Below, in pieces: positions 8,518 through 22,575 of a DNA stretch of 64,000 nt. The stretch comes from Microbacterium sp. (GTDB lineage: Bacteria > Actinomycetota > Actinomycetes > Actinomycetales > Microbacteriaceae), in contig JAFKIL010000006.1 in NCBI GenBank assembly GCA_017306415.1, positions 124,001-188,000 on the forward strand, written 5' to 3'. The translations under genes and the position numbers were made by a program. A model generated the notes under the pieces. That model was not told the origin of the DNA and did no database searches. It worked only from the letters and a program-made list of their open reading frames with translations. Numbering within the stretch: position 1 is the first letter of the stretch; the number at the start of each line of letters is the position of its first letter.

Positions 8518-9732
8518 CTACCGCGGGCTGCGGGCGCGGAGCGCCACGCCCGTCGCGATGGCCACGACCGCCGCAAGGACTCCCACCACGCCGATCGCAG
8601 CCGGAAGGGTTCTCGCGATCTGGGTGAGGGCTGCCGCGAGGATGGGGGTGAGGAACTGGCCGAAGAAGAATGCCGACGTGAACCAGCCGGTCACGCGGCC
8701 GCGCTCTTCAAAGCCGGTGCGCGAGACGAGCCACGTCAGCAGAGACGGCAGCAGCAGACCGCCGCCGAGGCCGGCGATCACCGCACCCACCACGATCCCC
8801 GCCGTCCCCGGGACGAACCAGATGATCACCATGCCGATGGCCTGCAGACCGAATGCGATCGGCAGCTGGATGCCGGTGGGCAGCTTGCCGATTCTCATGA
8901 ACGAGATCCCGCCGATCGCGGCGGCGAGGGAGGCGGCCGCGGCAACCGCCCCGATCACGCCGGAGTTGGTGGCCGCGACACCCGTCCCGACGACCAGGTA
9001 GCCGACCTCGAGTGCGATGATGTAGAAGCTGAACCCGCCGAAGATCGAGACGATGACCGGCACCCAGATTCGCCGCCACGGCGTGCGCACCTTCCCCGAT
9101 GCCTGCACGTGACTGTCGGTGGCATCCTGCTTGCTCGGCTCCCACAGGGAGAAGATCATCGGGACCGCGATCACGATGCTCAGGGCGTAGATCCAGAACG
9201 GCGTGTGCCATCCCGAGACACCCAGTGCGCCGCCGAGCGCGATGAAGACGGTGGCGGCGAGCGTGGTTGCGACCACCTGCAGGCCCAGGTAGCGGTTGCG
9301 TCGGCGCTCGTCGTGGAAGTAGTCGACGATGAGCGTCGTGCAGACGGTCATGATTGCTGCCTCGCATACGCCGACGAGCACGCGGCTGAAGAGGATCAGC
9401 GGGAGGCTCTCGAGCCACGCCGGCGCGGTGCCGACCAGCGCGTAGGCGAACATCGTGATGATGAGGAGAGTCTTGCGGCCGAGGCGATCGACGATCTGTC
9501 CCGCGAACGGAGCGAAGATCGCGATCATCAGCGCGGGGATCGCCACGATCATCGGGACGAGGATCTCGCCGCCCGGTTGGTCACCGAATTTCTGCGACAG
9601 CTGAGGGAGGATCGGCGTGATGAGGACGGAGCCCATCACCGGCATGCAGCTGCCGGCGAGGAGGAGCGCCGCCTGCCACCCGCCGGCGCGGCGGGTGGCC
9701 CTCATGGGTGCGGGCACGGTGTCATTCGTCAT
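8518..9732 (-). CDS. MFS transporter
   Basis: The protein has 404 residues with twelve predicted hydrophobic helices. The MFS loop 2-3 signature DRLGRKTLLI lies near residue 85. The charged loop between helices 6 and 7 (WEPSKQDATDSHVQASGKVRTPWRR) is as expected. It is the last gene of the catabolic operon, separated from the FAH gene by 88 bp that contains a 12-bp hairpin (9783-9794 / 9806-9817), which may reduce its expression relative to upstream genes. Probable role: proton-coupled uptake of the aromatic-type substrate or export of an intermediate; specificity cannot be read from sequence. ATG start with a weak ribosome site. Confidence 0.88.
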   Translation of the reverse strand: MTNDTVPAPMRATRRAGGWQAALLLAGSCMPVMGSVLITPILPQLSQKFGDQPGGEILVPMIVAIPALMIAIFAPFAGQIVDRLGRKTLLIITMFAYALVGTAPAWLESLPLILFSRVLVGVCEAAIMTVCTTLIVDYFHDERRRNRYLGLQVVATTLAATVFIALGGALGVSGWHTPFWIYALSIVIAVPMIFSLWEPSKQDATDSHVQASGKVRTPWRRIWVPVIVSIFGGFSFYIIALEVGYLVVGTGVAATNSGVIGAVAAAASLAAAIGGISFMRIGKLPTGIQLPIAFGLQAIGMVIIWFVPGTAGIVVGAVIAGLGGGLLLPSLLTWLVSRTGFEERGRVTGWFTSAFFFGQFLTPILAAALTQIARTLPAAIGVVGVLAAVVAIATGVALRARSPR

Positions 9733-9820: not shown

Positions 9821-10789
9821 TTACCGTCGGTTTCGCGGGCGGACCCGCGCGACGGCAGGGTCTGGTACGGATGCGGGCGCGCCGACGGTGCCGACGAGAT
9901 CGCCGATTCCTTCGACGATCATGCGGACCTGATCGCCTTCGATGAGCGGCGGCGGCGTGACCGTGCCACTTCGGCCCCACAGCTCGCCGAGGCATCCGCC
10001 GTTGCCGACCGTGCCGGAGCCGAGTACATCACCGGGTACGACGCGCGAGCTGCGGGACGCATAGGCCACGAACTCCGGGAACGGCCACCCCGCGTTGGAG
10101 ATCATGTCTTCGCCGATCCGGCTGCCGTTGACGTACACCTCGGCGTGGATGGCGAGAAAGCCCTCGTCGTCGAGGCGGGGGGCGAGCTCGTCGGCCGTGA
10201 CGATCCACGGACCGAGCGCGGTGCCGAAGTCCTTGCCCTTGGCCGGACCCAGGCGAACGGCCATCTCCCGCATCTGCAGGTCCCGAGCTGACCAGTCGTT
10301 CATGATCGTGTAGCCGAAGATAACGGATGCCGAATCCGCCGCTGAGAGATTCGATTCGCCGACTCCTGGCGCCGCGCCGACCACGATCGCCAGCTCGAGC
10401 TCGAAGTCGAGCCGCTGGGTCACCGGGGGCTGCAGGACGTCATCGGGACCGAGGACGGTGTGCGGGTTGGTGAAGTAGAACGTCGGTGCCTCGTACCACT
10501 CGGGTGGCACGTGCCCCACGCCCTCGGCGTCCGCCGTCATCCCCTCGACATGTTCCTCGAACGCGACGAAATCCCTGATCGACGTCGGCACGACCGGGGC
10601 GAGCAAGCGCACATCCTCGATTCGTGTCGCGCTGGCCGGGTCGACCTGCTCGAACAGGTTTCGCGTGTGGTCGAGCCCGCGCGCGAGTACGTCGGCGACA
10701 GTCAACCCGCCGGGGAATGGCACGACCGTGTCGTCGACCACGAACCCTTCCCAGGTCTCCCCCGCCGTCTCCCACCGCGCGATCCTCAT
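9821..10789 (-). CDS. Fumarylacetoacetate hydrolase family protein (FAH 1)
   Basis: The protein has 322 residues. The FAH fold is shown by RDFVAFEEH (about 72-80), the metal ligands Glu130 and Glu132 in DFELELAIVVG, Asp165 in GYTIMNDWSARD, KGKDFGTALGPWIV and the late glycine block (LGSGTVGNGGCLGE). Members hydrolyse, hydrate or decarboxylate 2,4-dioxo or 2-oxo-enoic acids using Mg2+. The size and ARDLQ motif fit acylpyruvate/fumarylpyruvate-type hydrolases. ATGA overlap with the amidohydrolase upstream. The C-terminus DPAVARVRPRNRR is odd: a 19-bp exact repeat places a second DPAVAR-coding copy just after the stop. Probably processes the ring-cleavage product. Confidence 0.88.
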   Translation of the reverse strand: MRIARWETAGETWEGFVVDDTVVPFPGGLTVADVLARGLDHTRNLFEQVDPASATRIEDVRLLAPVVPTSIRDFVAFEEHVEGMTADAEGVGHVPPEWYEAPTFYFTNPHTVLGPDDVLQPPVTQRLDFELELAIVVGAAPGVGESNLSAADSASVIFGYTIMNDWSARDLQMREMAVRLGPAKGKDFGTALGPWIVTADELAPRLDDEGFLAIHAEVYVNGSRIGEDMISNAGWPFPEFVAYASRSSRVVPGDVLGSGTVGNGGCLGELWGRSGTVTPPPLIEGDQVRMIVEGIGDLVGTVGAPASVPDPAVARVRPRNRR

Positions 10790-11802
10790 GAGCCGTTCCT
10801 CCGTCGTAGCAGTTCGTCTGCGTTTGCGCCGAGGATGGCCGTCTCGATGTCGTCGGGCAGCTCGGCTCCGTGCACGAATCCGACGGGATCGTCGAGCCCC
10901 ATGTCAAAGGGGAAGTCGCTGCCGAGCACGACCTGAGATGACCCCGCGGCCTCAAGCAGATGCCGCAATCCGACGTGGTCGTGCACGACGGTATCGAACC
11001 AGATCTTGCGCAGGTAGCTCGAGGGCTCGTGAGCGCAGCCGTGCGCGTCGGGCCGCACCCGCCACGCGTGGTCCGATCGCCCGATCGCCGTGGGGAGGTA
11101 GCCGCCGCCGTGGGCTGCGACTATCACCAGGCGCGGGTGCCGATCGAGCACTCCGGCGAAGATGAGGTGCGAGAGTGCGACGGCGTTCTCCGCAGGTTGA
11201 CCCACGGTGTTCGCGAGGTAGTAGCGATCGAGACGCTCGTCCAGCGAGCATCCGAACGGGTGCAGGAAGATGATCGCGTTCAGTTCCTCGGCACGTGCCC
11301 AGAAGGGCTCGAGTCGCTCGTCGGAGAGGTCGACGTCACCGGCGAACGAGGAGATCTCGACTCCGGCCAGCCGCTTTCCGATCATCGCGTCGTCGAGGCA
11401 TTCGACGATGCGCGAGGGGTGTTGCAGGGGAACGAGGCCGAGGCCGGTCAGTCTCCCCGGTGCGTTCGCCACGTGCTCAGCGACGAGGCGATTCGCCTCG
11501 GTCACCGCCCACACCGACAGCTTTTTGTCGGCCCACGGGTAGAAGTGGTTCGGTGATGCGCTCACCCACTGCCGGTCGACGCCCTGTGCGTCCATCGCGT
11601 TCAGCCGGACCTCGACAGAGGTCAGCTTCGGGATGCGAGCGCCCACCATCGGGCCGGAGACGACTTGACTGGCGGCGCCGTTGCGTTTGAGGTCGAGGAG
11701 GGCCGCCTCGGCGACCTCGCCCGGCGCACGTCGCTCGACCTCCGCGTGCAGGGTCGGCAACAGCACGTGGGCGTGGACGTCGGTGACCGGGGAGACGCTC
11801 AT
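10786..11802 (-). CDS. Amidohydrolase (ACMSD / resorcylate-decarboxylase type)
   Basis: The protein has 338 residues from ATG 11802, which overlaps the upstream stop as ATGA; a longer frame upstream is not supported. Metal ligands typical of amidohydrolase_2 enzymes are visible: His10 and His12 in DVHAHVL, His181 in FLHPFG, His231 in AHGGG and Asp296 in GSDFPF. This family includes 2-amino-3-carboxymuconate semialdehyde decarboxylase, gamma-resorcylate and 5-carboxyvanillate decarboxylases and some lactone or ring-opening hydrolases; the (D)xHxH...H...H...D pattern with the HGGG turn fits a Zn- or Mn-dependent decarboxylase. It probably removes a carboxyl group from an aromatic or muconate-type intermediate. 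Exact substrate unknown. Confidence 0.87.
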   Translation of the reverse strand: MSVSPVTDVHAHVLLPTLHAEVERRAPGEVAEAALLDLKRNGAASQVVSGPMVGARIPKLTSVEVRLNAMDAQGVDRQWVSASPNHFYPWADKKLSVWAVTEANRLVAEHVANAPGRLTGLGLVPLQHPSRIVECLDDAMIGKRLAGVEISSFAGDVDLSDERLEPFWARAEELNAIIFLHPFGCSLDERLDRYYLANTVGQPAENAVALSHLIFAGVLDRHPRLVIVAAHGGGYLPTAIGRSDHAWRVRPDAHGCAHEPSSYLRKIWFDTVVHDHVGLRHLLEAAGSSQVVLGSDFPFDMGLDDPVGFVHGAELPDDIETAILGANADELLRRRNGS

Positions 11803-12932
11803 GCGGGCTCCGCCATCCGGTGCGCCAGACCGAAGATGAGCCCACCTGCATCGGCATCCTGGTCGCCGTCGATCTGCCATTGGCCGAGTTGGACGGATGC
11901 CGCGACCACAGCCTGTGCGCGCGGGAGGCGGCGGGCGTGGAAGTCATCCCACAGCGCCTGGTCGAGGTGTTCGCTTTGGATCAGGAGTTCGGTGAGCACG
12001 AAGGCGTCCTCCAGGCCCTGCGCCGCGCCCTGGGCGATGGTGGGCGGGCAGGAATGGGCGGCGTCGCCGATGACGACCGTTCGACCGCGGTTCCACGGCG
12101 CGGGAACGAGGTGCTTGGTGAACCACGTGTAGTTCGTCGGGGATCCGGATTGGAGGTCTGCGCGGACGGCGTTCCACGGGCCCTCATATGCACGCGATTC
12201 GTTGATCATGATCTGCGCACCCTCTTCGTCGGTGAGTCCGAACCGGTCCGCGGCGGCCCCGACGAGTAGCGCGTACATGGTGTTCTCTCCGGTGGGCGTG
12301 TAGCCGGCGATGTACACGGAGCCCCCGTAGTAGAGCTCGGTGTGCACCACCTCGTCAGGGCGGGAGACGAACGCGCGCCAGGCCCCCATTCCGGTGGGCT
12401 CGGGGCGGGTCTCGATGCCGATGAGGGCTCGCACGGTCGAGTTGAGCCCGTCCGCTCCGATCACGAGATCGTATGTGCCCAGGACGTCGCCGCCGACCTC
12501 GAGAGTCACGGAGTCGTCGACGTGCCGGAGAGCAGTGACTTCGGCGCCGAAGTGTGCCCGTGCTCCCGCGCGTGTTGCGTGCTCGAACAGGATGCGGGTG
12601 AGGTCCGCGCGCGCCATCCCCATGCCTGCGGGATAGTCGGGTCCGCCGGTCTTGACCTCCGGCAGTTCGGCGACCCTCACCGCTCCCGGCCCCGGGGCGC
12701 GGAGGGTGAGCCCCTCGTAGGGATAGCCTGCAGCGCGGAGGTCTTCCCAGGCGCCGAGCGCGTCGAAGACGCGCAGCGCGTTCCCCTGCAGCGAGATGCC
12801 GGACCCCCGCGCGCTGAGCTCCGCTTTCCTCTCATAGATGTCGACCTCGACGCCAGCCTTGGCGAGCTGGATCGCGGCTGCAAGTCCAACTACTCCGGCG
12901 CCGACGACGGCGACCTTCGCTACTGCGGTCAC
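11799..12932 (-). CDS. FAD-dependent monooxygenase B
   Basis: The protein has 377 residues. The N-terminal Rossmann motif is VAVVGAGVVGLAAAIQLAKAG (about 7-27). A DG-type motif follows near 160 (YDLVIGADGLNSTVR), and the FAD ribityl motif is TVVIGDAAHSCPPTIAQGAA near 290. This is the class A flavoprotein hydroxylase pattern of phenol, salicylate and hydroxybenzoate hydroxylases, NAD(P)H-dependent and cytosolic. Second flavin monooxygenase of the operon; the two share little sequence, so they probably act at different steps. ATGA overlap with the amidohydrolase downstream; 33-bp gap to the MBL gene upstream. Hydroxylation followed by decarboxylation or ring cleavage is a reasonable reading. 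Confidence 0.88.
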   Translation of the reverse strand: MTAVAKVAVVGAGVVGLAAAIQLAKAGVEVDIYERKAELSARGSGISLQGNALRVFDALGAWEDLRAAGYPYEGLTLRAPGPGAVRVAELPEVKTGGPDYPAGMGMARADLTRILFEHATRAGARAHFGAEVTALRHVDDSVTLEVGGDVLGTYDLVIGADGLNSTVRALIGIETRPEPTGMGAWRAFVSRPDEVVHTELYYGGSVYIAGYTPTGENTMYALLVGAAADRFGLTDEEGAQIMINESRAYEGPWNAVRADLQSGSPTNYTWFTKHLVPAPWNRGRTVVIGDAAHSCPPTIAQGAAQGLEDAFVLTELLIQSEHLDQALWDDFHARRLPRAQAVVAASVQLGQWQIDGDQDADAGGLIFGLAHRMAEPA

Positions 12933-12965: not shown

Positions 12966-13856
12966 TCAGGCATGGCAGTCGAGGGGCCGGCTGCCGTTGT
13001 AGTCGTACATGTCCTGCCACGCCGCGGCGAAGTCGGGCTGCCGGTCATCCAGTTCGGCGATCGCGCGATGCACGTTGCCGACGATCCGCTCGGAATCGAG
13101 CCACCCAGCGAACTCGCCCAGATCGAGACCGCGTGCTGCGTCCAGCGGGATCAGGTCCCGGTTGTGCGCGTCGTGCGCCGCCGCGATCACGAAGCGCAGG
13201 TAGCGTGCGACGGGCTCGAGGATCTCGACGCCCCCGACCGGTCCGTGCCCGGGGACGATGGTCGTCGGCTGGAGTGCGGCGAGCTCGTCGAGGGTCTCGA
13301 GCCATCCGCTCGGCGATCCCGACAACGCGAAGGGTGTGCCGCCGTTGAACACGAGGTCGCCGGTGAACAGAATGCGCTCGTCGGGTAGCCACACGTAGGC
13401 ATCGCCGCGGGTGTGCGACGGGCGCGCGGGGTGGCGCACGTCGATTCGTCGATCGCCGATGGTGAGCTCCACCGCGTCCGCGAACTCCCGCGTGGGGAGG
13501 CGTGCGCTGACTTCTCCCTGCACGAAGGGGGTGAAGATGTGCGACGCAGGCGGCGGCGTGTGCTGCAGCTCCTTGGTCACACTCGCGTGGGCGAGGATCT
13601 CCGCATCGGGCAGCAGGGACGCCCCGTTGGAGTGGTCGGGGTGCGCGTGCGTGTAGATCACCCTTGTGATCGGGGCGGCAACCTTCGCCGCCGCATCGAG
13701 GTAGTTCTTCATGCGGCGTTCGGTAGAGGTGACGTCGACGCTGGTCGCGCCCTCCGGGCCGCCGATCAGGCCCACGTTGTTGATCATCCAGCTGCCGTCG
13801 GGCTGAATGTAGGCCCAGACGCCGTCGGCGAGCTCTTGGAGGTAGGGGCTCGTCAT
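12966..13856 (-). CDS. Metallo-beta-lactamase-fold hydrolase
   Basis: The protein has 296 residues from ATG 13856 (ATGA overlap with the upstream monooxygenase gene). The metal-binding motif is YTHAHPDHSNGA with His70, His72, Asp74 and His75. Further ligands lie in RPSHTRGDAYVW, LFTGDLVFNGG and VPGHGPVGG. No signal peptide, so cytosolic. The family includes lactonases, thioesterases and other hydrolases; with two flavin monooxygenases beside it, opening of a lactone or ester formed by oxygenation is plausible. The specificity loop cannot be assigned by eye. The reading frame continues open far upstream through the monooxygenase gene, but the coupled ATG is clearly the start. Confidence 0.87.
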   Translation of the reverse strand: MTSPYLQELADGVWAYIQPDGSWMINNVGLIGGPEGATSVDVTSTERRMKNYLDAAAKVAAPITRVIYTHAHPDHSNGASLLPDAEILAHASVTKELQHTPPPASHIFTPFVQGEVSARLPTREFADAVELTIGDRRIDVRHPARPSHTRGDAYVWLPDERILFTGDLVFNGGTPFALSGSPSGWLETLDELAALQPTTIVPGHGPVGGVEILEPVARYLRFVIAAAHDAHNRDLIPLDAARGLDLGEFAGWLDSERIVGNVHRAIAELDDRQPDFAAAWQDMYDYNGSRPLDCHA

Positions 13857-15091
13857 GCCGCGCCGGCACCTTCGGGTGCGGGCGTGAACAGGTCGTCCCC
13901 CATCGCCCGCAGCTGGGATGAGATCTCCTTGGGGTTGCTGTCGCCGACCATCTTCTGCAGGAACTTCGTGTTGTTGAAAACGAAATCGCGGAGCGGACGC
14001 ATCGGCGCGGGCACGTAGTGGAAGTTGCGTCCTAGCATGTAGGCCAGCTTCACCTGGCCGGCGGTGTGCTCGGCCCGGGCATTCTCGTACTTCGACAGCG
14101 CCGCCTTCACTGCGGCGGTGTCGGTGAGGTCGATCCCGTGGAGGATCTGCCCGAGGAAGTAGCCGTCGACGATCGACATGCCCGCGCCGTACGCCGCGTA
14201 GGGACTCGTGGCGTGCATCGAGTCGCCCGCGAAGGTCACACGTCCCTTCGCCCACACCTGCGGGACCTCGCCGCGATCGCGGATCGCCCAGGAGAACACG
14301 TGATCCTCGGTCGTGTTTCCGATGAGTTCGGTCAGCTCCGCCGGGAACTCGCGGACGGACTCGAGGGCGAACTCCTTGAGGTCGCTCGGGAAGGGCTTCT
14401 TCGGGTCGGACGCCTGGAGCACCCACCACTCGACGCCGCTGCGTCCCTTGCTGCGGATCCCCGTGTGGCTGGCCTGGATCGTGCGCGAATGCCGCAGGAT
14501 CGCCTGGTCGGTGCGCACGCCGGCCGGGACATCGAATGTGTATCCGCCGATGACCGTGAGGCCGTGCTCGCGGACCGGCGGGAGACCCCAGACCTTCTCG
14601 CGCACGACGGAGTTGATGCCGTCCGCGCCGATGACGAGCGGTGTCGTGATGCTGGTTCCGTCCTGGAATCGGACGACGACGTGGTCTCCCTCGTCCTCGA
14701 GATCGGTCACGAGCTTGTTGCCCACGATGATGCCGTCGGGGAGGGCATCGAGCATGCGCTCGTAGAGGTCGGGCCGCGTGAGACCGAGGAATCCGCCGTA
14801 CTGTTCCACCACGCCCTCGGGGAAGTGGACCTCGACGCGCAGCTTGTTCTTGTGGCTGCGGAACTCTGTCTCGCACGACGCACCGAGGTCGTCGATGTCG
14901 ACACCGATCTCCTCCAGCGCCTTCACCGCCGGCGGCCAGAGGTTGAGGATGTTGCCGGCCGGACGAGGCTCCGAATAGCGCTCGTAGATATGCACCGGCG
15001 TGCCGACCTTGATGAGGGCGAGAGCGGTGGCGATGCCCGCCGGCCCTGCTCCGATGACGGCGACCGGGTCGGTGGCGACGTTGTCGTTCAT
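13853..15091 (-). CDS. FAD-dependent monooxygenase A
   Basis: The protein has 412 residues. Rossmann motif VAVIGAGPAGIATALALIKVG (about 11-31), VIGADGINSVVREKVWG near 155-175, and FAGDSMHATSPYAAYGAGMS near 285. This is a class A aromatic hydroxylase (p-hydroxybenzoate hydroxylase fold). The C-terminal part FHYVPAPMRPLRDFVFNNTKF is not the thioredoxin-like domain of phenol hydroxylases. Operon position: ATGA overlaps on both sides (dehydrogenase upstream at 15088-15091, MBL gene downstream). Probable role: NAD(P)H- and O2-dependent hydroxylation of the ring substrate or an early intermediate; exact substrate unknown. Confidence 0.88.
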   Translation of the reverse strand: MNDNVATDPVAVIGAGPAGIATALALIKVGTPVHIYERYSEPRPAGNILNLWPPAVKALEEIGVDIDDLGASCETEFRSHKNKLRVEVHFPEGVVEQYGGFLGLTRPDLYERMLDALPDGIIVGNKLVTDLEDEGDHVVVRFQDGTSITTPLVIGADGINSVVREKVWGLPPVREHGLTVIGGYTFDVPAGVRTDQAILRHSRTIQASHTGIRSKGRSGVEWWVLQASDPKKPFPSDLKEFALESVREFPAELTELIGNTTEDHVFSWAIRDRGEVPQVWAKGRVTFAGDSMHATSPYAAYGAGMSIVDGYFLGQILHGIDLTDTAAVKAALSKYENARAEHTAGQVKLAYMLGRNFHYVPAPMRPLRDFVFNNTKFLQKMVGDSNPKEISSQLRAMGDDLFTPAPEGAGAA

Positions 15092-16110
15092 GAGTTCTCC
15101 TCGTCGAGTGCTCGGGTCTGTTTCAGGGTCGGGGTGCGGAGTTCGGGTCTGTCGAGGACGGAGCGGTCGACGACCGATGCAGGCAGTCGGCCGGCGAGGA
15201 CCGTCAGGGCGTTGGTCGTCGCCTTCGTCGCGAGCTCGATGAGCGAGCCGTCGGAGGCGAATGCGACGTGCGGTGTGACGATCGCGTCGTCGCTCGATCG
15301 GAGCCAGTGCTCCGCGGGGAGGGGCTCGGGGTCGGTCACGTCGAGTGCCGCGCGAAGGCGTCCGCTCTCAACCTCGGCGCGGAGGGAGTCGGTGTTGACC
15401 AGGCCGCCGCGGCTCACGTTCACGAGGAGTGCGCCGTCTTTCATGCGGGCCAGCTCCGCCGCGCCGACGGAATGGCGCGTGTCCGCGGCCAGGGGGACGT
15501 GGATCGAGACGACGTCGGATTCGGCGAGGAGGGTGTCGCGATCGACCACGCGGCTCACGTGGGCCGGTACGGACGCCGGGTCAACGGCGAGCCGGCGGGA
15601 ATCAACGACGACTTCGAACCCGAAGGCGGTCGCACGCTCGGCGACGGCGGCGCCGATGGCGCCATAGCCGATGATGCCCAGGACGAGGCCGCGGATCCGT
15701 CGCGCGGAGGCGCCCGCATCCGTCCGCCATCCGCCACCCCTGACGGTGTCCGTGGCGGGGAGGAGGTTGCGCAGCGTCGCGAGGATCAGCAGGAGGGTGT
15801 GATCGGCGACCTCCTCGGTGCAGAACTCGGGAACGTTGCTCACCAGGATGCCGAGCTCCGTGGCGCGGGCGACGTCGATATTGTCGACGCCCACGCCGTA
15901 GCGGGCGACGGTCCGGCAGCGGATCGCTGCATCGAGCACCGTCGCCGACACGCGCCGGAAGCAGGTGAGGATCGCGTCCGCCTCGGGGGCGAGAGCGAGC
16001 AGGTGCTCATCGGATTCGGCGAGCACGACGGAGTGGCCGGCGACGGCTGCGAGCTCCCGCTCGATGTCGATGGTCGGCCATGCGATGTCGGTGATCACGA
16101 TCGTGCCCAT
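15088..16110 (-). CDS. D-2-hydroxyacid dehydrogenase (NAD-binding)
   Basis: The protein has 340 residues from ATG 16110, which shares one base with the enolase stop codon. NAD-binding motif GIIGYGAIGAAVAERATAFG near 147-166. The catalytic triad of the D-isomer-specific family is visible: Arg in VNVSRGGLVN, Glu in DVTDPEPLP and His in VTPHVAFAS. The N-terminal part (GVGVDNIDVARATELGI) is typical of phosphoglycerate / hydroxypyruvate-reductase relatives. It interconverts a 2-oxo acid and a D-2-hydroxy acid. Lying directly downstream of the kinase and enolase genes, it may make the hydroxy acid that the kinase phosphorylates, or act on the enolase product after loss of phosphate. Confidence 0.88.
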   Translation of the reverse strand: MGTIVITDIAWPTIDIERELAAVAGHSVVLAESDEHLLALAPEADAILTCFRRVSATVLDAAIRCRTVARYGVGVDNIDVARATELGILVSNVPEFCTEEVADHTLLLILATLRNLLPATDTVRGGGWRTDAGASARRIRGLVLGIIGYGAIGAAVAERATAFGFEVVVDSRRLAVDPASVPAHVSRVVDRDTLLAESDVVSIHVPLAADTRHSVGAAELARMKDGALLVNVSRGGLVNTDSLRAEVESGRLRAALDVTDPEPLPAEHWLRSSDDAIVTPHVAFASDGSLIELATKATTNALTVLAGRLPASVVDRSVLDRPELRTPTLKQTRALDEENS

Positions 16111-17396
16111 CACACCGTCCGCCCGAAGCTCGGCTGTGCGACCGCGATGTCCGGCCCGAGCTCCCTTTCGATCTCGAGCAGGCGGTTCCATTTCGCGGTG
16201 CGCTCGGACCGCATCGTGGATCCCACCTTGATCTGCCCCGTGTTCCAGCCGACGGCGAGGTCGGCGAGCCAATCGTCCTCCGTCTCGCCCGAGCGGGCTG
16301 ACAGCACGGTGGCGTAGCCGGCGGCGTGCGCGAGCTCGACCACTTCGCGCGCCTGACTGAGCGTGCCGATCTGGTTCGGCTTGACGAGCACCGCGTTCGC
16401 CACCGACTCGTCGATCCCGCGCTGGACACGGTCGGGCGACGTGACGAACAGGTCGTCGCCGAGCAGCTGGATGTCGCCGAGACTCGCGGTCGCTTCGCGC
16501 CATCCGGTCCAGTCGTCTTCGGCCAAGGCATCCTCGATCGACACGATCGGGAAATCCCGGACCCACGAGGCCAGCTCCGCGGTGAGCTCGCGCGCTGTCA
16601 TCGTGCGGCCCTCCGTCTCCCACCGGTAGGTGTCGTTGCCGGAGGTGTGGAACTGGGTCGCGGCGACGTCGATCGCGATCGCGATGTCGTCCCCGGGTGT
16701 CAGTCCCGTCCTCTCGAACGCCCGCATGAGCACCTCGAGCGCGTCGCGGTTGCCGTCGAGACGAGGGCCGTAGCCGCCCTCGTCGGCGACGAGCGCCCAG
16801 GTGGCGCCGCGCTCCCGGAGCACCTCGCCGGTCGCCGCCCGCACACGGGAAACCCGTTCGATGGCCTCGGAGAACGTCGTCGCACCGACGGGGATCACGA
16901 GGAAGTCCTGCACGTCGAGCGCACGAGCCGCATGCGCGCCGCCCGAGATGATGTTGACCATCGGCATCGGGGTGCTGCGGACGCTCTCCCCGCACGACGC
17001 GAACAGCGGCATCCCGCGCGACGCGGCGGCCGCGCGGGCCGTCGCCACCGAGATCGCCAAGATGGCATTTGCGCCGAGGCGACCTCCGTCCGGCGTGCCG
17101 TCGGCGGCCCTCAGCGCGATGTCCACGCCGGCCTGGTCGACGACATCGAGACCGAGCACGGCGTCGCGCAGCCCGCCCTCCGCGTTCGCCACGGCGCGCT
17201 GCACGCCGAAGCCGCCGTAGCGCTCCCCGCCGTCGCGCAGCTCGCGCGCCTCGTGCGACCCGGTGGACGCCCCGGAGGGGACGATCGCCCGGCCGCGGTG
17301 GCCGCCGGCGGTGACGACCGTGCATCCCACGGTAGGGCGGCCGCGGGAATCCAGCGCCTCGAAGGCCATCACGGAGGCGACGGGATCAACGCTCAT
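16110..17396 (-). CDS. Enolase paralogue with altered catalytic residues
   Basis: The protein has 428 residues, full enolase length. Conserved: PSGASTG (40-46), NIISGGAHA with His155, ADEGG with Glu206, metal ligands Asp243 (AIDVAAT), Glu288 (SIEDALAEDDW) and Asp315 (GDDLFVT), base Lys339 (LVKPNQIGTL), Arg368-Ser369 for phosphate, and Lys402. Changed: the Glu of the usual QEF motif is Asp164 (VQDF), and the His of SHRSGETED is Ala367 (SARSGETED). The protein should bind Mg2+ and a phosphorylated 2-hydroxy acid-type ligand, but its chemistry may differ from glycolytic enolase. Overlaps the kinase gene by 11 bp and the dehydrogenase gene by 1 bp. A dedicated catabolic role is inferred; the housekeeping eno should be elsewhere. 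Confidence 0.9.
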   Translation of the reverse strand: MSVDPVASVMAFEALDSRGRPTVGCTVVTAGGHRGRAIVPSGASTGSHEARELRDGGERYGGFGVQRAVANAEGGLRDAVLGLDVVDQAGVDIALRAADGTPDGGRLGANAILAISVATARAAAASRGMPLFASCGESVRSTPMPMVNIISGGAHAARALDVQDFLVIPVGATTFSEAIERVSRVRAATGEVLRERGATWALVADEGGYGPRLDGNRDALEVLMRAFERTGLTPGDDIAIAIDVAATQFHTSGNDTYRWETEGRTMTARELTAELASWVRDFPIVSIEDALAEDDWTGWREATASLGDIQLLGDDLFVTSPDRVQRGIDESVANAVLVKPNQIGTLSQAREVVELAHAAGYATVLSARSGETEDDWLADLAVGWNTGQIKVGSTMRSERTAKWNRLLEIERELGPDIAVAQPSFGRTV

Positions 17397-18402
17397 CGGG
17401 GAGACTCCAGATGTCGGCGAGGCGCCCGTGGTCGGACGCGAGGAGAGTGAGCCCGTGAGCGCGCGCGCGATCGCGTTGCTCAGCGGTGAGGTAGTCGACG
17501 GGTGACTTGCCGTCCACCCGGGCGAGGATCAGCGCCCCCACATGCTGAACGAGGTATGCCTCGTCCAGGGACTGGTCGATCCCCGCCTGATAGCTGGCGA
17601 CGAAAGCCTGTGCGGTCTCGACCAGTCCGGGTGCGTGGACGGGGGATGCGATGAGCTTGCAGACGAGATGGTGGAGCAGGAAGGCCACGTCGAAGACGGG
17701 GTCGCCCGTGTGCGCCACCTCCCAGTCGATGACCCAGAGCTCGGTGCTCGGCGCCGCGTCGACGAGGATGTTCTTGGGCGAGAAGTCGCCGTGGACCAGG
17801 GCAGAGCGCGTGCGCGACATGCGATCGACGAGTTCAGCGATGGTGGGTGCCGCCGCCAGGTTCCGCTCGGCCGCCACCTCGTAGAACGGCCTCACCCGGA
17901 GCTGCTGGAAGGCGTCCTGATCCGTGAACTCCGCCAAAACGCCCGCATCATCGTTCGCCGACGCGGCATGCCACGACGCCAGGAGGTCGCCGAGGTGCGC
18001 TCCCAATTCCGGACGAATCACTCCTGCGAGCAGCTGAGACTTCCAGTTGTCGTAGGACGTCGGCGCGAGCTCGACGACGATTACATTGCGGGAACGGTCC
18101 ACAGCCACCACCGAGGGCACCGCGTCCGGCCGGATGCCGCGCGCCCATCGCAGGGCGGCCGCCTCTGTGAAGGATCGCTCGGGCGACGCCTCCCAGATCT
18201 CGGATACGCGAAGGCGCGGGAGCGCACGCTTGACCACGAAGTCGCGGCCGCCGCCGTGCACGACGGCGACATCGTTGGAGACGCCGCCCGCCAGCGGCTC
18301 GACCGTCGCCTCTTCGTCGGCGCCGAGCATGCCGACGCTCCTCAGCGCCGCCGCCGCAGAGTCCCGCAGGTCATCGTCGACAGCATCCACACTCGCCTTC
18401 AC
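17386..18402 (-). CDS. APH-fold small-molecule kinase
   Basis: The protein has 338 residues. The nucleotide lysine is probably Lys58 (FVVKRALPRLRV). The catalytic loop is VHGDFSPKNILV with Asp206 and Asn211, and the metal motif is VIDWEVAHTGDP with Asp226. This is the choline / aminoglycoside / methylthioribose kinase fold (phosphotransferase family, PF01636 type). The VKRALPRLR segment recalls methylthioribose kinases. Placed ahead of and overlapping an enolase paralogue, it is unlikely to be a resistance enzyme; it probably phosphorylates a hydroxyl on a pathway intermediate that the enolase then dehydrates. ATG start; 43 bp after the dioxygenase stop. Kinase fold is firm, substrate unknown. 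Confidence 0.85.
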   Translation of the reverse strand: MKASVDAVDDDLRDSAAAALRSVGMLGADEEATVEPLAGGVSNDVAVVHGGGRDFVVKRALPRLRVSEIWEASPERSFTEAAALRWARGIRPDAVPSVVAVDRSRNVIVVELAPTSYDNWKSQLLAGVIRPELGAHLGDLLASWHAASANDDAGVLAEFTDQDAFQQLRVRPFYEVAAERNLAAAPTIAELVDRMSRTRSALVHGDFSPKNILVDAAPSTELWVIDWEVAHTGDPVFDVAFLLHHLVCKLIASPVHAPGLVETAQAFVASYQAGIDQSLDEAYLVQHVGALILARVDGKSPVDYLTAEQRDRARAHGLTLLASDHGRLADIWSLPDER

Positions 18403-18445
18403 GCACTCATCCCTTCCCGTCGTCGCCGCCGCCGCGCGTTCGCCA

Positions 18446-19489
18446 TCAACGCAGTGCGGCGGGCTTCTGGTGGAAGAACTCCGCCGCAGCCTCCTCGTTC
18501 ATGGCGGCCTGTTCGAGCTCGGCCGCCTCCTTCGGCGGTGCGGGGAACGAGTCGTGGATGAACGACTCCGGAATCTCGACGTTGCGATAGATCGACTGCC
18601 CGGGGTTGCCGCCGGCCGCGTGGTATGTCTTCGTCTCCCAGTCGGGCATGGTGTTCACCCATCCGCCGGAGTTCACCTCCATGCGGAACCCGCCCGGCTC
18701 CCGGAAGTAGAGATAGGTGATCTCGTCGATCCCGTGCACGCCCGGGCCGAGCTCGATCGGAGTGCCGTGCGACACCGCGGCCTCGGCCATCCGTTCGACA
18801 TCGACGCGCTGGTCGACCCGGAAGGCGATGTGGTGCCCGCGGCCCGTCATGCCGCTGAAGTCGGGAACGAGCGCGACGTCGTGGGTCGAACGGATGGCGT
18901 TGCAGGTGAGGGTGGAGAAGACGGAGAAGCCGGGTTCGACCTCCGTCTGCGCGGTGTGGCGCGCTCCCAGCTTCTTGTAGAACTCGATGTCGCCCCGCAT
19001 GTTGCCGGTCGGCATCGTGACGTGGTCGAGGTAGCGTGCGGCGCCGCCCCCGTTCAGGGGCATCTTCTGAGGACGATTCGGGACCGCGTGATCCTTGAGC
19101 TCCTCCGGCGCCTCGTAGAGATCGACATCCCAGAACACTTCGTTGAGGTGACGGCCGAACGCCGAACGGTACTGGTAGGTGCGACCGTGCCCCGTCCACG
19201 AGTCGATCCAACCCACGTGCTCCTCCGTGTCGATCAGGCGCTTGGCAACGGTGTCCGGGTCGCCCGGGCCGTAGGTTCGCCATCCGATCCGCCCGAGGCC
19301 CGGCTCGTTCGCCTCTGTGACGATGAAGCTCGAATGCAGCCACTCGGCCCACCCGCGCATATACACCGACTGCCCCTCACGGGTCGTCTCCTGAAGACCC
19401 AGGACATCCTTCATCCAGGCGACGGTCTCTTCGGGCTTGGGGCTCAGCAGCTCGACGTGCGCGAGCTGGGACAGCAGGATCTCTGACAT
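18446..19489 (-). CDS. VOC-fold extradiol-type dioxygenase
   Basis: The protein has 347 residues from ATG 19489, preceded by AAGGAG. It has two VOC modules: N-terminal LAHVELLSPKPEETVAWMKDVLGL (about 7-30) and catalytic C-terminal YLDHVTMPTGNMRGDIEFYKKLG. The three type I extradiol iron ligands are visible: His in LDHV, His in GRGHHIAFRVD and Glu in GFRMEVNSGG; the nearby Tyr (TYLYFREPGG) also fits. It should cleave a catecholic ring next to the two hydroxyls using Fe(II) and O2. The tail of about 70 residues rich in Ala/Glu is longer than in small catechol 2,3-dioxygenases. Second gene of the operon, 26 bp after FAH 2. Confidence 0.88.
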   Translation of the reverse strand: MSEILLSQLAHVELLSPKPEETVAWMKDVLGLQETTREGQSVYMRGWAEWLHSSFIVTEANEPGLGRIGWRTYGPGDPDTVAKRLIDTEEHVGWIDSWTGHGRTYQYRSAFGRHLNEVFWDVDLYEAPEELKDHAVPNRPQKMPLNGGGAARYLDHVTMPTGNMRGDIEFYKKLGARHTAQTEVEPGFSVFSTLTCNAIRSTHDVALVPDFSGMTGRGHHIAFRVDQRVDVERMAEAAVSHGTPIELGPGVHGIDEITYLYFREPGGFRMEVNSGGWVNTMPDWETKTYHAAGGNPGQSIYRNVEIPESFIHDSFPAPPKEAAELEQAAMNEEAAAEFFHQKPAALR

Positions 19490-19515
19490 GTCGCTCCTTG
19501 TCTCTTGACTGTTGT

Positions 19516-20490
19516 TCAGGCGGGCGGTTCGACGCACAACGTCCGCTGCATGCCGAGACCCGTGATGGTGGATTCGATGACATCGCCGGGTCGAAGCCAG
19601 CGGTTGTCGTGATGGCCGGCGTTTCCCGCGGGAGAACCGGTAAGGATCATGTCGCCGGGCGACAGGCGGGTCATCTGCGAGGCGTAGCTGACGCAGTCCT
19701 CAACGCCGTGGATGATGTCGTCGATCAGCTGGTCCTGCATGACCTCGCCGTTGACCGACAAGGTGATGCGCAGGCGGCGGTAGTCAGGGATGAACCGCCG
19801 GGGCACGATCACCGGTCCGGTCGGGAAGAAGGTCGGGCGGTTCTTGGAGGTCACGAAGTCTGTGAGCGGGAAGCCTGGCCGGCTCATCACGTCGCGCACC
19901 GTGATGTCGTTGCTGATCGTGTACCCGGCGACATGACTCAGCGCGTCCCCGGGAGCGACATGATGGGTCGGTTTGGCGATCAGGACTCCCAGTTCGAGTT
20001 CCCAGTCGTGCTTCTCGCCAGGAGTCCACAGCACGACGTCGTCGTTCGCTCCCGACACCGCTGAGGGAATGCCGGGGAACATGAAGGGCTCGGATGCCCG
20101 CGAGCGGGCCTGCTGTGACGCGAATGCGCGCAGCTCGTCATCGGATCGCTCGTCGCCGTCGTTGCGGAACCAGGCGAAGACGATCTGCTCTACATGGCGG
20201 AAGTAGTTCGCGCCCGCGCACAGCAGCTGCCCGGGAGGCTGAACGGGCGGGAGCGGCCGCACTTCGTCCAACGGAATGCCGACGGCACTGGCGGACAGCA
20301 GCTCTTCGAGAGCATCGATCGCCGAGTCCCAGTCCTGCAGAAGGCCGATGACGGACACCTCTCGCCCGAGGAGGGCCGAAACATCGTGGACCCGGTCGTC
20401 GATCACGGCCCCGGTGAAAACGCGTCCCTCGATGTCGAAGGTCCCCAGGCCGAATGCGCCCGGGAGCACCGCTGAATCTTCGTTCGACAC
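19516..20490 (-). CDS. Fumarylacetoacetate hydrolase family protein (FAH 2)
   Basis: The protein has 324 residues from GTG 20490, preceded by AAGGAG about 10 bases away; a frame extending upstream would cross the operator and is rejected. FAH motifs: ICAGANYF-like LLCAGANYFRHVEQ, metal ligands in HDWELELGVLIAKP, GYTISNDITVRDV, FFPTGPVIVP and DMILTGSPAGNAG. It resembles the 2-hydroxyhepta-2,4-diene-1,7-dioate isomerase / acylpyruvase type. First gene of the 11-gene operon, next to the extradiol dioxygenase, so it probably acts on the ring-fission product; a second FAH lies at the far end of the operon and may act later. Confidence 0.88.
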   Translation of the reverse strand: MSNEDSAVLPGAFGLGTFDIEGRVFTGAVIDDRVHDVSALLGREVSVIGLLQDWDSAIDALEELLSASAVGIPLDEVRPLPPVQPPGQLLCAGANYFRHVEQIVFAWFRNDGDERSDDELRAFASQQARSRASEPFMFPGIPSAVSGANDDVVLWTPGEKHDWELELGVLIAKPTHHVAPGDALSHVAGYTISNDITVRDVMSRPGFPLTDFVTSKNRPTFFPTGPVIVPRRFIPDYRRLRITLSVNGEVMQDQLIDDIIHGVEDCVSYASQMTRLSPGDMILTGSPAGNAGHHDNRWLRPGDVIESTITGLGMQRTLCVEPPA

Positions 20491-20517
20491 CGTTGTCGCT
20501 CTCCTTGTTCTTCGCTG

Positions 20518-20545
20518 AACTAGAACACGACTGCGCGTTCTAGTT
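20518..20545. promoter_or_regulatory. Operator for the divergent TetR regulator
   Basis: AACTAGAAC (20518-20526) and GTTCTAGTT (20537-20545) form a perfect 9-bp inverted repeat with a 10-bp spacer, between the operon start (20490) and the TetR start (20604). Position and form are those of a TetR-family operator acting on both promoters. Confidence 0.8.
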
Positions 20546-20603
20546 TTAGTGTGCGGCACGACACGGCGCGATGTCAAGTGTGATTTCTCGGACATAGCAT
20601 GGG

Positions 20604-21236
20604 GTGGTGTCAGAAGCAGGGAAGATCCGCCAGCCCCTCCAGCGGAGGAGCCAGGAGGCGTTCGAGCGCGTCCTGAAGGCGGGCCGCGAGATCCTCGAGA
20701 ACGTCGGTGTCGAAGGCTTCACGGTTGCCGCCGTCTCGAAGCGCGCGGGAGTGTCCGTCGGGTCGATCTACTTGCGCGTCCCCAGCCGCGAGGCTCTCAT
20801 CCTGGCCATCCACGACGAAGAGATGGAGCGCCTAGAGCGCGAAGAGAATTCGTTCAACCAGGCCGACGCATCAGACCTCGATACCCGCTCCTACGTCATC
20901 GATGTCGTGCTCAAGACCGCCGGGCACACCCTCGCCAACGCCGGAATCCTCCGCGCCTTCATGCGCCGAGGACCCGATGATCCGGACATCTGGGCACGCG
21001 CACGAGCCACGAGCCAGCGGATCGCTGCCGACTTCGAGTTCGCGATGCTCAAGCGCCGAGACGAGTTCGCGCATGCCGATCCCGAGAAGGCCGTGGACTT
21101 CGCCTTCCGGGTCGTCTACAACATGACCGCTCGACGAGTGACGCACGGCGCGGAATTCGAATCAGCGCGCCCCCTGAGCGATGAAGAATTCCTGCAGGAG
21201 CTCGGCGAGATGGTCGCCGACTATCTGGTCGGCTGA
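20604..21236 (+). CDS. TetR/AcrR-family regulator of the catabolic operon
   Basis: The protein has 210 residues. The N-terminal TetR helix-turn-helix is ILENVGVEGFTVAAVSKRAGVSVGSIYLRVPSREAL (about 30-65). The C-terminal ligand domain is all helical and unlike well-known members. It is divergent from the 11-gene operon, with a perfect palindrome between them, so it should repress that operon and itself until a pathway compound binds. Two adjacent GTG codons (20604, 20607) can start; the first is used here. It ends 219 bp before the convergent FGE gene. Confidence 0.88.
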   Translation: MVSEAGKIRQPLQRRSQEAFERVLKAGREILENVGVEGFTVAAVSKRAGVSVGSIYLRVPSREALILAIHDEEMERLEREENSFNQADASDLDTRSYVIDVVLKTAGHTLANAGILRAFMRRGPDDPDIWARARATSQRIAADFEFAMLKRRDEFAHADPEKAVDFAFRVVYNMTARRVTHGAEFESARPLSDEEFLQELGEMVADYLVG

Positions 21237-21454: not shown

Positions 21455-22519
21455 TCACGCCGAGGCTGCCCGGTCCCACACCGGGAGCTCGATGCGCGAC
21501 GCTGCGTCTCCAGCGTGCGAGATCTCCTGGTGCGCGACCACGGTCGCCGCGGTGCGGAAGCCGGCGTTGCCCATCGAGGAGTCCGGCGTGTTCGAGGTGC
21601 GGGCGGAGTTGCGGTACCGGTTGCAGTACGAGATGTGGCACAGGTAGCTGCCGCCCCGCATCACTCGTCCGGAACCGGATGCCGGACCGCGGGGGTCGCT
21701 CGCGGGCGACGCGCGGTAGTACCCGGGCGAGAACCAGTCCGCGCACCACTCCCACACGTTCCCGACGGTCTGCCACAGGCCGTACCCGTTCGGGGTGAAC
21801 GAACGGACCGGCGCGGTGCCGAGGTATCCGTCGTCGACGGTGTTCGTGACCGGGAACTCGCCCTGCCAGATGTTCGCCCGCCAGCCTCCTGCATCCACCT
21901 CCTCGTCGCCCCACGGGTACTTCGCCGCGACGAGACCGCCGCGCGATGCGTACTCCCACTCGGCCTCGGTCGGCAGCCGCCGCCCCGCCCACTCGGCGTA
22001 GGCGACGGCGTCGTTCCAGCTCACATGGGTGACCGGATGGTCGCCGAGTCCGTCGAGGTCGGAGTCGCGCCCGCCGGGATGGCGCCAATCGGCCCCGCGC
22101 ACGCCGAGCCACCAGGGTGCGGCGGCGACGGAGCCCATCACATCCGCGTCCGGCGCCCGCAGCAGGAGGTGGAAGACCGCGGAGAAGCCGAAGCTCTCCG
22201 CCTCGGTGACGTACCCGGTCGCCGCGACGAAGCGGGCGAACGCGTCGTTCGTGACGGACGTGGCGTCGATCTGAAAGGCGTCGAGCGACACCTCGTGGCG
22301 GGGCGACTCCCCGTCCCCGCGGTTCTCATCACCCGACGCGTCGCCCATCACGAAGGTGCCCGCGGGGATCGCCACCTGCTCCAGATCGTGGACACCGCCC
22401 GCCAGCACGGCCGGCGGCGGCACCCGTGTACCGAGCTCGACGAAGACGCCCCGGCTCGGCGCACCGCACGTGCAGCCCGCGCCGCACGATCCGCCCGTCG
22501 CATCGGTCGACGTGTCCAT
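21455..22519 (-). CDS. Formylglycine-generating enzyme (sulfatase activator)
   Basis: The protein has 354 residues from ATG 22519, which follows GGAGGGAG; an ATG at 22549 lacks a well-spaced site. FGE-sulfatase domain: IPAGTFVMGD, VTNDAFARFV, THVSWNDAVAYAEWAGRRLPTE, and NVWEWCADWF. The C-terminal active site RGGSYLCHISYC contains Cys294 and Cys299, the copper-binding pair of true FGEs, so this is not a generic SUMF1-like protein. The N-terminal CGAGCTC cluster (Cys12, 16, 18) is a usual actinobacterial feature. It converts the sulfatase active-site Cys to formylglycine. It lies about 55 bp after the sulfatase gene, its obvious client. Confidence 0.92.
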   Translation of the reverse strand: MDTSTDATGGSCGAGCTCGAPSRGVFVELGTRVPPPAVLAGGVHDLEQVAIPAGTFVMGDASGDENRGDGESPRHEVSLDAFQIDATSVTNDAFARFVAATGYVTEAESFGFSAVFHLLLRAPDADVMGSVAAAPWWLGVRGADWRHPGGRDSDLDGLGDHPVTHVSWNDAVAYAEWAGRRLPTEAEWEYASRGGLVAAKYPWGDEEVDAGGWRANIWQGEFPVTNTVDDGYLGTAPVRSFTPNGYGLWQTVGNVWEWCADWFSPGYYRASPASDPRGPASGSGRVMRGGSYLCHISYCNRYRNSARTSNTPDSSMGNAGFRTAATVVAHQEISHAGDAASRIELPVWDRAASA

Positions 22520-22575
22520 CCCACTCCCTCCGGAGGTGCTCGCATCCATCCTGCCGCCACCCGCGCTGCGACGGG

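Follow-up and report, generated by a model that had tools for sequence, protein, structure and literature searches.

Few enzymes of central metabolism are better conserved than enolase. In the glycolytic enzyme (yeast numbering), E168, E211, and H373 hold the water or hydroxyl leaving C3, K345 is the base, and the E168/H373 face lies opposite the catalytic lysine in the pocket; the enzyme needs a substrate of 2R configuration. In the serine cycle, enolase follows hydroxypyruvate reductase and glycerate kinase and precedes phosphoenolpyruvate (PEP) carboxylase. The window analyzed here, a stretch of 64,000 nucleotides from Microbacterium sp. (GenBank assembly GCA_017306415.1, contig JAFKIL010000006.1, positions 124,001 to 188,000), encodes an altered enolase between an APH-fold kinase and a D-isomer-specific 2-hydroxyacid dehydrogenase (Table 1). 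The first-pass annotation of this DNA described these genes as a translationally coupled trio, and the open reading frames (ORFs) and sequence confirm their coordinates, their minus-strand order, and overlaps of 11 bp between kinase and enolase (17386–17396) and 1 bp between enolase and dehydrogenase (TGATG).

The altered enolase carries a two-residue signature shared with kinase-linked enolases from distant organisms, which carry the annotation phosphopyruvate hydratase in the records examined. This signature probably marks enolases with a different function in actinobacteria, proteobacteria, and haloarchaea. We propose, with a probability of roughly 0.5, a two-step module, extended to three steps in this window, in which a (2R)-2,3-dihydroxy acid would be phosphorylated at C2 and would then lose its C3 hydroxyl to the altered enolase; this pairing of a C2 phosphate with loss of the 3-hydroxyl is suggested because a kinase and then an enolase would act in series.

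The Altered Enolase Subfamily

The window enolase scores 492.7 bits against the TIGR01060 cut-off of 300 and shares with glycolytic enolase the family models (TIGR01060, PF00113/PF03952), the length, the metal ligands, the catalytic lysine pair, and the phosphate- and carboxylate-binding residues. It differs, as do the linked copies, in the pocket for the leaving hydroxyl, where it carries D164 and A367, equivalent to yeast E168D and H373A. In the alignment of actinobacterial enolases, the E168 site is D in 68/68 linked rows and E in 26/26 ordinary rows, while the H373 site is A in 67 and G in one of the 68 linked rows and H in 25 of the 26 ordinary rows, the remaining row being cut short. These 68 rows remain from an original 74 after removal of L137 and of five duplicates (L138–L142) of loci already represented. 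Residues unchanged in the linked enolases include the loop Ser, H159, E211, the metal ligands, K345, R374, S375, and K396; 12 further positions are mostly fixed in the linked actinobacterial subfamily, and several of these vary outside the actinobacteria.

The D/A signature is kept in the records examined from Rhizobium, Cupriavidus, Caballeronia, Methylobacterium, Roseibium, Paracoccus, Sphingobium, Rhodococcus, and haloarchaea. When all loci are tabulated (rows are loci, some of which overlap and hence are not independent), those holding the kinase give 120 D/A rows and one D/G row, whereas the 35 E/H rows come from loci none of which contains the kinase. Five D/A rows derive from loci without a kinase (L183, L187, L195, L196, and L198), and there a kinase is found at a greater distance, within the same record or genome. 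Unlike glycolytic enolase, the linked copies are accompanied by the kinase in the same genome or record in each case examined. Searching plasmid records with the window stretch by blastn returned mainly enolase matches among the matches listed (best 10 of 85), and two plasmid records from that search, taken as controls, have the ordinary E/H signature.

In the enolase tree, a branch of 1.09 changes per column with 100/100 support splits 67 linked rows from L137 and 24 ordinary rows; the tree omits the second copies and a small number of short rows, the midpoint root serves for drawing only, and the usual warning about long branches applies. L137, from the Jiangella anatolica genome, was considered as a member of the linked family and rejected, as both its signature and its place in the tree are those of ordinary enolases; it is a third enolase, on a very long branch.

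Two of the three hydroxyl-holding residues are smaller in the linked enolases while the base and the charge-binding residues are kept, as would be expected for a substrate with an additional substituent at C3 or with another leaving group. The latter could mean that PEP is the product but that the C3 leaving group is not water, as with an aryl or alkyl ether of glycerate. The changed residues are those that handle the leaving hydroxyl in ordinary enolase, and PEP carboxylase is a neighbor in Rhizobium, but the idea requires one ether-type substrate across aromatic, sugar, and archaeal settings, where none is evident, and we regard it as rather remote. Alternatively, L-glycerate could be the source of an L-2-phosphoglycerate substrate for the enolase, whose acid and base would then have exchanged faces of the pocket. 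The two conserved changes do fall on the face opposite the catalytic lysine; however, the lysine base is conserved and the family name of the partner dehydrogenase implies D-specificity, which makes this alternative improbable.

Conservation of the Kinase-Enolase Pair

Relatives of the kinase were sought in one genome per species across 84,980 species, and the best 80 of 412 related stretches were kept. An enolase lies directly downstream of the kinase on the same strand in 65 of the 75 loci with at least 800 bases downstream; gene calling in high-GC loci is rough, and neighbor lists there may miss genes. The kinase lacks an adjacent enolase in L035, L036, L038–L041, L047, L092, L100, and L105, and for three of these (L036, L092, and L105) a linked-type enolase is found elsewhere in the genome. 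In five loci from metagenome-assembled genomes (MAGs) of Acidimicrobiaceae or unplaced actinobacteria (L035, L036, L040, L041, and L047), the kinase occurs with an FAH and a metallo-beta-lactamase (MBL)-fold gene, and it may have a second partner there.

Near the window lineage, the kinase is an accessory gene: at E <= 1e-30, it is present in 0/11 same-genus and 0/9 same-family genomes listed. Among 396 genomes drawn evenly from the phylum, matches with E below 1e-60 occur only in the window genome, G021, and G006, and in both of the latter the altered enolase is next after the kinase. Across 394 genomes of the class, the kinase (E <= 1e-30) is found in 36, a DNA pattern for the altered enolase in 35, and both in 33 (Fisher p 3e-42, relatedness uncorrected). 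The pattern occurs in two of the 358 kinase-less genomes (G579 and G605), where the matches read SARCGDRED and TASTGDTED and were rejected as chance peptides; a second match in G530 contains stop codons and was likewise discarded. Three genomes have the kinase only (G658, G676, and G752), and the last of these has an adjacent altered enolase (L161) one residue off the pattern. Pairwise distances among the kinases correlate with those among the linked enolases (0.88 over 21 genomes, or 0.87 with ordinary-enolase distances removed), and 0/2000 permutations reached as high a value.

Adjacency, class-wide co-occurrence, and matching divergence all bear out the first-pass idea that kinase and enolase act in series, and the pair recurs in other actinobacteria, accompanied by FAH and VOC genes in part of the loci. 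The window enolase is neither the sole enolase of its genome nor a lone oddity, both of which were considered and rejected: a second, ordinary copy lies on another contig (Enolase_C 415.7 bits, versus 290.9 for the window copy), and relatives of the window enolase, like the gene order, recur across genomes, contrary to the outcome that the first-pass annotation named as refuting its reading. At least two enolases were found in 22 of 24 genomes searched, including assemblies of 0.8–1.5 Mb; in small freshwater genomes, a spare enolase must earn its place. One could suppose that the linked enolase is an ordinary 2-phosphoglycerate enolase made resistant to an inhibitor that arises in the pathway, such as tartronate semialdehyde phosphate, which the linked kinase could form accidentally and against which the pocket changes might protect. 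Resistance would not demand such tight pairing over such divergent pathways, however, and of the readings considered here we give it the least credence.

The Kinase and the Dehydrogenase

The described enzyme closest to the kinase is 5-methylthioribose kinase (TIGR01767; PDB 2pyw and 2olc), with which it shares the APH/MTRK fold and the HGD and D.E motifs. The plant enzyme 2pyw is both its closest PDB sequence (phmmer E 8.2e-16) and the top Foldseek match (TM 0.82 by query length) of its AlphaFold model (mean pLDDT 93.6), and the motifs HGD.SPKN and D.E are invariant in 31 aligned sequences. However, the kinase falls far below the TIGR01767 cut-off (65.4 versus 275 bits) and reaches the cut-off of none of the 10 NCBIfam families listed, and no methionine-salvage genes were seen in the annotation tables examined.

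The dehydrogenase contains both Pfam domains of its family, PF02826 and PF00389. The catalytic set of D-2-hydroxyacid dehydrogenases is Arg-Glu-His. The Arg and His are kept in all rows covering them, while the Glu position is D in the window protein, D, A, V, G, or P in the nearest actinobacterial copies, and E in the Rhizobium rows, Rhodococcus pseudokoreensis, and R. opacus PD630. In an automatic alignment, this position is apparently G, V, P, or A in L034, L037, L042, and L049. As a partner in the trio, the dehydrogenase does recur beside kinase and enolase, but in a subset of loci only: a homolog lies within 6 kb of the kinase in 6 of the 39 loci flanked by 5 kb or more in both directions.

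Genomic Settings

The aromatic-type setting reported in the first-pass annotation describes the window and some of its relatives but is not specific to the module, many relatives of which lie in sugar or sugar-acid neighborhoods; these settings were assigned from chosen members and not counted across all loci. A ring-cleavage setting that includes the dehydrogenase is found in the window, Microbacterium yannicii (L033), Actinomadura (L061), and Rhodococcus, Rhizobium, and Sphingobium plasmids. The M. yannicii locus has identities to the window of 64% for FAH, 82% for VOC, 64% for the monooxygenase, 64% for the kinase, 79% for the enolase, and 73% for the dehydrogenase; the Actinomadura locus has FAH and monooxygenase relatives and no VOC match.

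Among 72,556 plasmid records, 31 have a kinase match at E <= 1e-20, in hosts including Rhizobium, Rhodococcus, Cupriavidus, Paraburkholderia, Caballeronia, Azospirillum, Methylobacterium, Roseibium, Paracoccus, Sphingobium, and haloarchaea; the weakest match, in Enterobacter (29% identity), may be merely a distant kinase. Sixteen kinase-bearing regions were examined, three of which are unannotated and were analyzed by tblastn. In Rhizobium CIAT894, indicum, N324, and Pop5, genes for PEP carboxylase, dehydrogenase, and kinase are consecutive, with VOC, enolase, cupin, and ABC transporter genes on the opposite strand. The order in Rhodococcus pseudokoreensis and R. opacus PD630 is FAH, dehydrogenase, enolase, kinase, FAH, and that in Sphingobium is dehydrogenase, kinase, enolase, and FAH (by Pfam), divergent from VOC, cupin, and alcohol dehydrogenase genes. 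The VOC proteins of Sphingobium and Rhizobium score 291 and 273 bits to homoprotocatechuate 2,3-dioxygenase (cut-off 321).

Roseibium and Paracoccus encode the kinase, enolase, FAH, and SDRs together with a sugar ABC transporter, and a Roseibium SDR is xylose-1-dehydrogenase-like (278 bits versus a cut-off of 400). In haloarchaea, kinase and enolase are found amid mandelate-racemase-type enzymes, and Halomarina also has a galactonate dehydratase. Sugar or sugar-acid settings are found in freshwater acI-type actinobacteria, where some loci have an SDR, the kinase, and the enolase, with IlvD/EDD, FAH, and aldehyde dehydrogenase genes nearby, others have sugar ABC genes and one for L-arabinose isomerase, and others again have a gene resembling that for talarate/galactarate dehydratase. 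In the same kind of setting, SDR, FAH, or SMP-30 lactonase genes are near the pair in Nocardia, Nocardioides, Microbacterium, and Kribbella relatives. Upstream of SDR, kinase, and enolase in freshwater actinobacteria is a TIM-barrel family, c5 (L051:8339–9259 and 26 further loci), which has a weak U32 peptidase match and, in a structure search, only general aldolase- or U32-like matches (TM ~0.5). Five MAGs titled Bifidobacterium breve or Streptomyces griseus (L054, L071, L090, L108, and L109) have the freshwater actinobacterial gene order and are probably mislabeled.

Of the 39 loci with 5 kb or more on both flanks, 21 have an FAH homolog no more than 6 kb from the kinase. The hydrolase-type HxxE motif, that of acylpyruvate hydrolases, whose His and Glu are tied to hydrolysis in the FAH family in an excerpt of PMC6336799, is present in 14 of 20 FAH genes near the kinase, including all nine from SDR-type clusters and also those of L037 and L042, which are of the dehydrogenase type. 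The six genes without it are the two of the window, those of L033 and Sphingobium, and both of R. pseudokoreensis.

Proposed Reaction and Its Alternatives

In the reaction that we favor, the kinase would spend ATP to phosphorylate a (2R)-2,3-dihydroxy acid on its 2-hydroxyl. The altered enolase, which retains the K345-type base, would then take away the C2 proton together with the C3 hydroxyl. The product would be a 2-phosphoenol-3-deoxy acid, a larger relative of PEP, and loss of phosphate from this enol phosphate would give a 2-oxo-3-deoxy acid. In the window run, the dehydrogenase would first reduce a ring-cleavage-derived 2-oxo-3-hydroxy acid to the 2R alcohol, so that the net effect of the trio on a 2-oxo acid would be loss of its 3-hydroxyl. 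Where the neighborhood is of the sugar-acid type, the pair might replace an acid-sugar dehydratase. We propose that the kinase is a 2-kinase of a (2R)-2,3-dihydroxy acid, the altered enolase a 2-phospho-2,3-dihydroxy-acid dehydratase, and the dehydrogenase the enzyme that sets the 2R hydroxyl; we infer the size of the substrate, the position of phosphorylation, the direction, and the fate of the phosphate.

The main rival is the example offered in the first-pass annotation, a local glycerate route in which the dehydrogenase would convert hydroxypyruvate to D-glycerate, the kinase would represent a new family of D-glycerate 2-kinases, and the enolase would form PEP. This is possible, and the D stereochemistry fits; however, both steps would be redundant in the window genome, which has, in addition to its ordinary enolase, an ordinary GlxK-type glycerate kinase (PF02595), so that the kinase of the trio is not its sole glycerate kinase. 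Because both enzymes are present, D-glycerate and 2-phosphoglycerate as such need neither step of the pair. Moreover, the pocket of the linked enolases differs from that of ordinary enolases throughout, and a source of D-glycerate is not evident in the pentose-like clusters, the known hydrolytic route giving glycolate according to an excerpt of PMC6336799. We therefore consider the glycerate route the less likely of the two. A substrate larger than glycerate is favored instead because the pocket is altered alike in every linked copy examined, because the window genome already has both ordinary steps, and because a catabolic module need not carry a universal enzyme for its usual substrate; a mobile module of this kind would have no need of an enolase for ordinary 2-phosphoglycerate.

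Several observations weigh against the larger substrate, some of them by favoring glycerate. The nearest PDB match of the dehydrogenase is 2cuk, a glycerate dehydrogenase/glyoxylate reductase, and the PEP carboxylase beside dehydrogenase and kinase in the four Rhizobium records fits PEP as the product. In each of the seven remaining loci without an adjacent enolase, all from MAGs, one enolase was found, and it is ordinary where readable; one of these (L136) is cut at a contig end, and the MAGs may be incomplete. The glycerate route gains further from the four freshwater actinobacterial genomes tested, none of which has a PF02595 or PF13660 glycerate kinase (the latter being the MOFRL-type kinase domain).

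Other points concern the dehydration itself. No sugar-acid dehydratase is annotated in the Roseibium and Paracoccus stretches examined, but MR/MLE, IlvD/EDD, or GarD-type genes lie about 13 kb or more away on the same replicons, so replacement of an acid-sugar dehydratase by the pair is only suggestive. An IlvD/EDD gene is next to the pair in many freshwater loci (26 in cluster c6, one member of which was identified). Finally, other families perform such a dehydration without ATP, and its expenditure here would make little sense if the phosphate were not regained.

Gene Run in the Window

The genes are transcribed in the order FAH, VOC dioxygenase, kinase, enolase, dehydrogenase, flavin monooxygenase, MBL, flavin monooxygenase, amidohydrolase, FAH, and MFS (Table 1), and from the spacing we infer a single operon. 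The VOC dioxygenase, which resembles catechol 2,3-dioxygenases (PDB matches), is separated from the kinase by 43 bp, and the dehydrogenase overlaps the adjoining monooxygenase (13853–15091) by 4 bp. The trio was initially placed between an extradiol dioxygenase and two flavin monooxygenases; these flanks stand, except that the MBL-fold gene separates the monooxygenases. The second monooxygenase shares 82 bp with the amidohydrolase ORF, and the start assigned to one or the other is therefore probably incorrect. An ORF at 18399–19352 was rejected as the upstream gene, as it has no family match and the dioxygenase is in a different frame.

Table 1. Genes of the run containing the kinase, altered enolase, and dehydrogenase (window positions)
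Gene	Position	Strand and start	Family evidence and remarks
FAH-fold gene, likely first of run	19516..20595	minus	Pfam FAA_hydrolase; HxxQ replaces hydrolase HxxE
VOC-fold extradiol dioxygenase	18446..19537	minus	TIGR03211 191 bits, below cut-off 320
APH-fold kinase	17386..18402	minus, GTG start	Pfam APH
Altered enolase	16110..17396	minus, ATG start	TIGR01060; second enolase of genome
D-isomer-specific 2-hydroxyacid dehydrogenase	15088..16110	minus, ATG start	Pfam 2-Hacid_dh_C
Flavin monooxygenase adjoining dehydrogenase	13853..15091	minus	Pfam FAD_binding_3
MBL-fold hydrolase	12966..13868	minus, start approximate	Pfam Lactamase_B
Second flavin monooxygenase	11799..12932	minus	Pfam FAD_binding_3; relatives near module in L033 and L061
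Amidohydrolase family 2	10786..11880	minus	Pfam Amidohydro_2
Second FAH-fold gene	9821..10789	minus	Pfam FAA_hydrolase
MFS transporter, end of run	8518..9732	minus	Pfam MFS_1

Upstream of the first FAH gene is a divergent ORF (20604–21236, plus strand), possibly a regulator of the run, with a homolog in the same place in L033 (5826–6494, minus strand; cluster c77). Further upstream of the aromatic run, on the minus strand at 21455–24354, are a gene for a sulfatase, which has a CMPAR site, and a dedicated formylglycine-generating-enzyme-like gene, adjoining a TetR regulator and a GH3 glycosidase. From this neighborhood, the compounds entering the pathway may include sulfated or glycosylated ones.

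Comparison with Known Pathways

The protein families discussed here are already known; what appears to be new, as far as the open-licence literature searched extends, is their pairing, the signature common to the whole linked family, and the reaction that these imply. Among the matches listed from its full texts, no title was found on the trio, on a kinase-linked enolase, or on an aldonate 2-kinase. Where "enolase" occurs in the excerpts of PMC6336799 and PMC9795676, it refers to the enolase superfamily and not to enolase proper, and a kinase-enolase pair is described in neither excerpt. Non-phosphorylative Route III for pentoses and deoxysugars, as presented in an excerpt of PMC6336799, has SDR dehydrogenases and an HxxE-type FAH gene in common with the SDR-type clusters of the pair; however, it is described there with an acid-sugar dehydratase and no kinase-enolase pair.

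If the proposed chemistry is correct, the module would be the phosphoenol counterpart of the acid-sugar dehydratase pathways, acting on an aldonate in sugar users and on a reduced ring-cleavage product here, and it would be common to freshwater actinobacteria, rhizobia, marine alphaproteobacteria, and haloarchaea. It would provide the enolase family proper with a second metabolic reaction, an ATP-primed, iron-sulfur-free dehydration of 2,3-dihydroxy acids to a PEP homolog, a tentative claim to which we give somewhat less than even odds. A catabolic branch would then have been mis-annotated as glycolysis, with two residues separating the two functions.

No serine or C1 genes were seen in the annotation tables of the kinase-bearing regions examined. 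In order of reaction types, the module parallels the segment of the serine cycle described at the outset, and the PEP carboxylase of that segment is represented in the four Rhizobium clusters; the module differs from it in that the kinase is of another fold and the enolase is both dedicated and altered.

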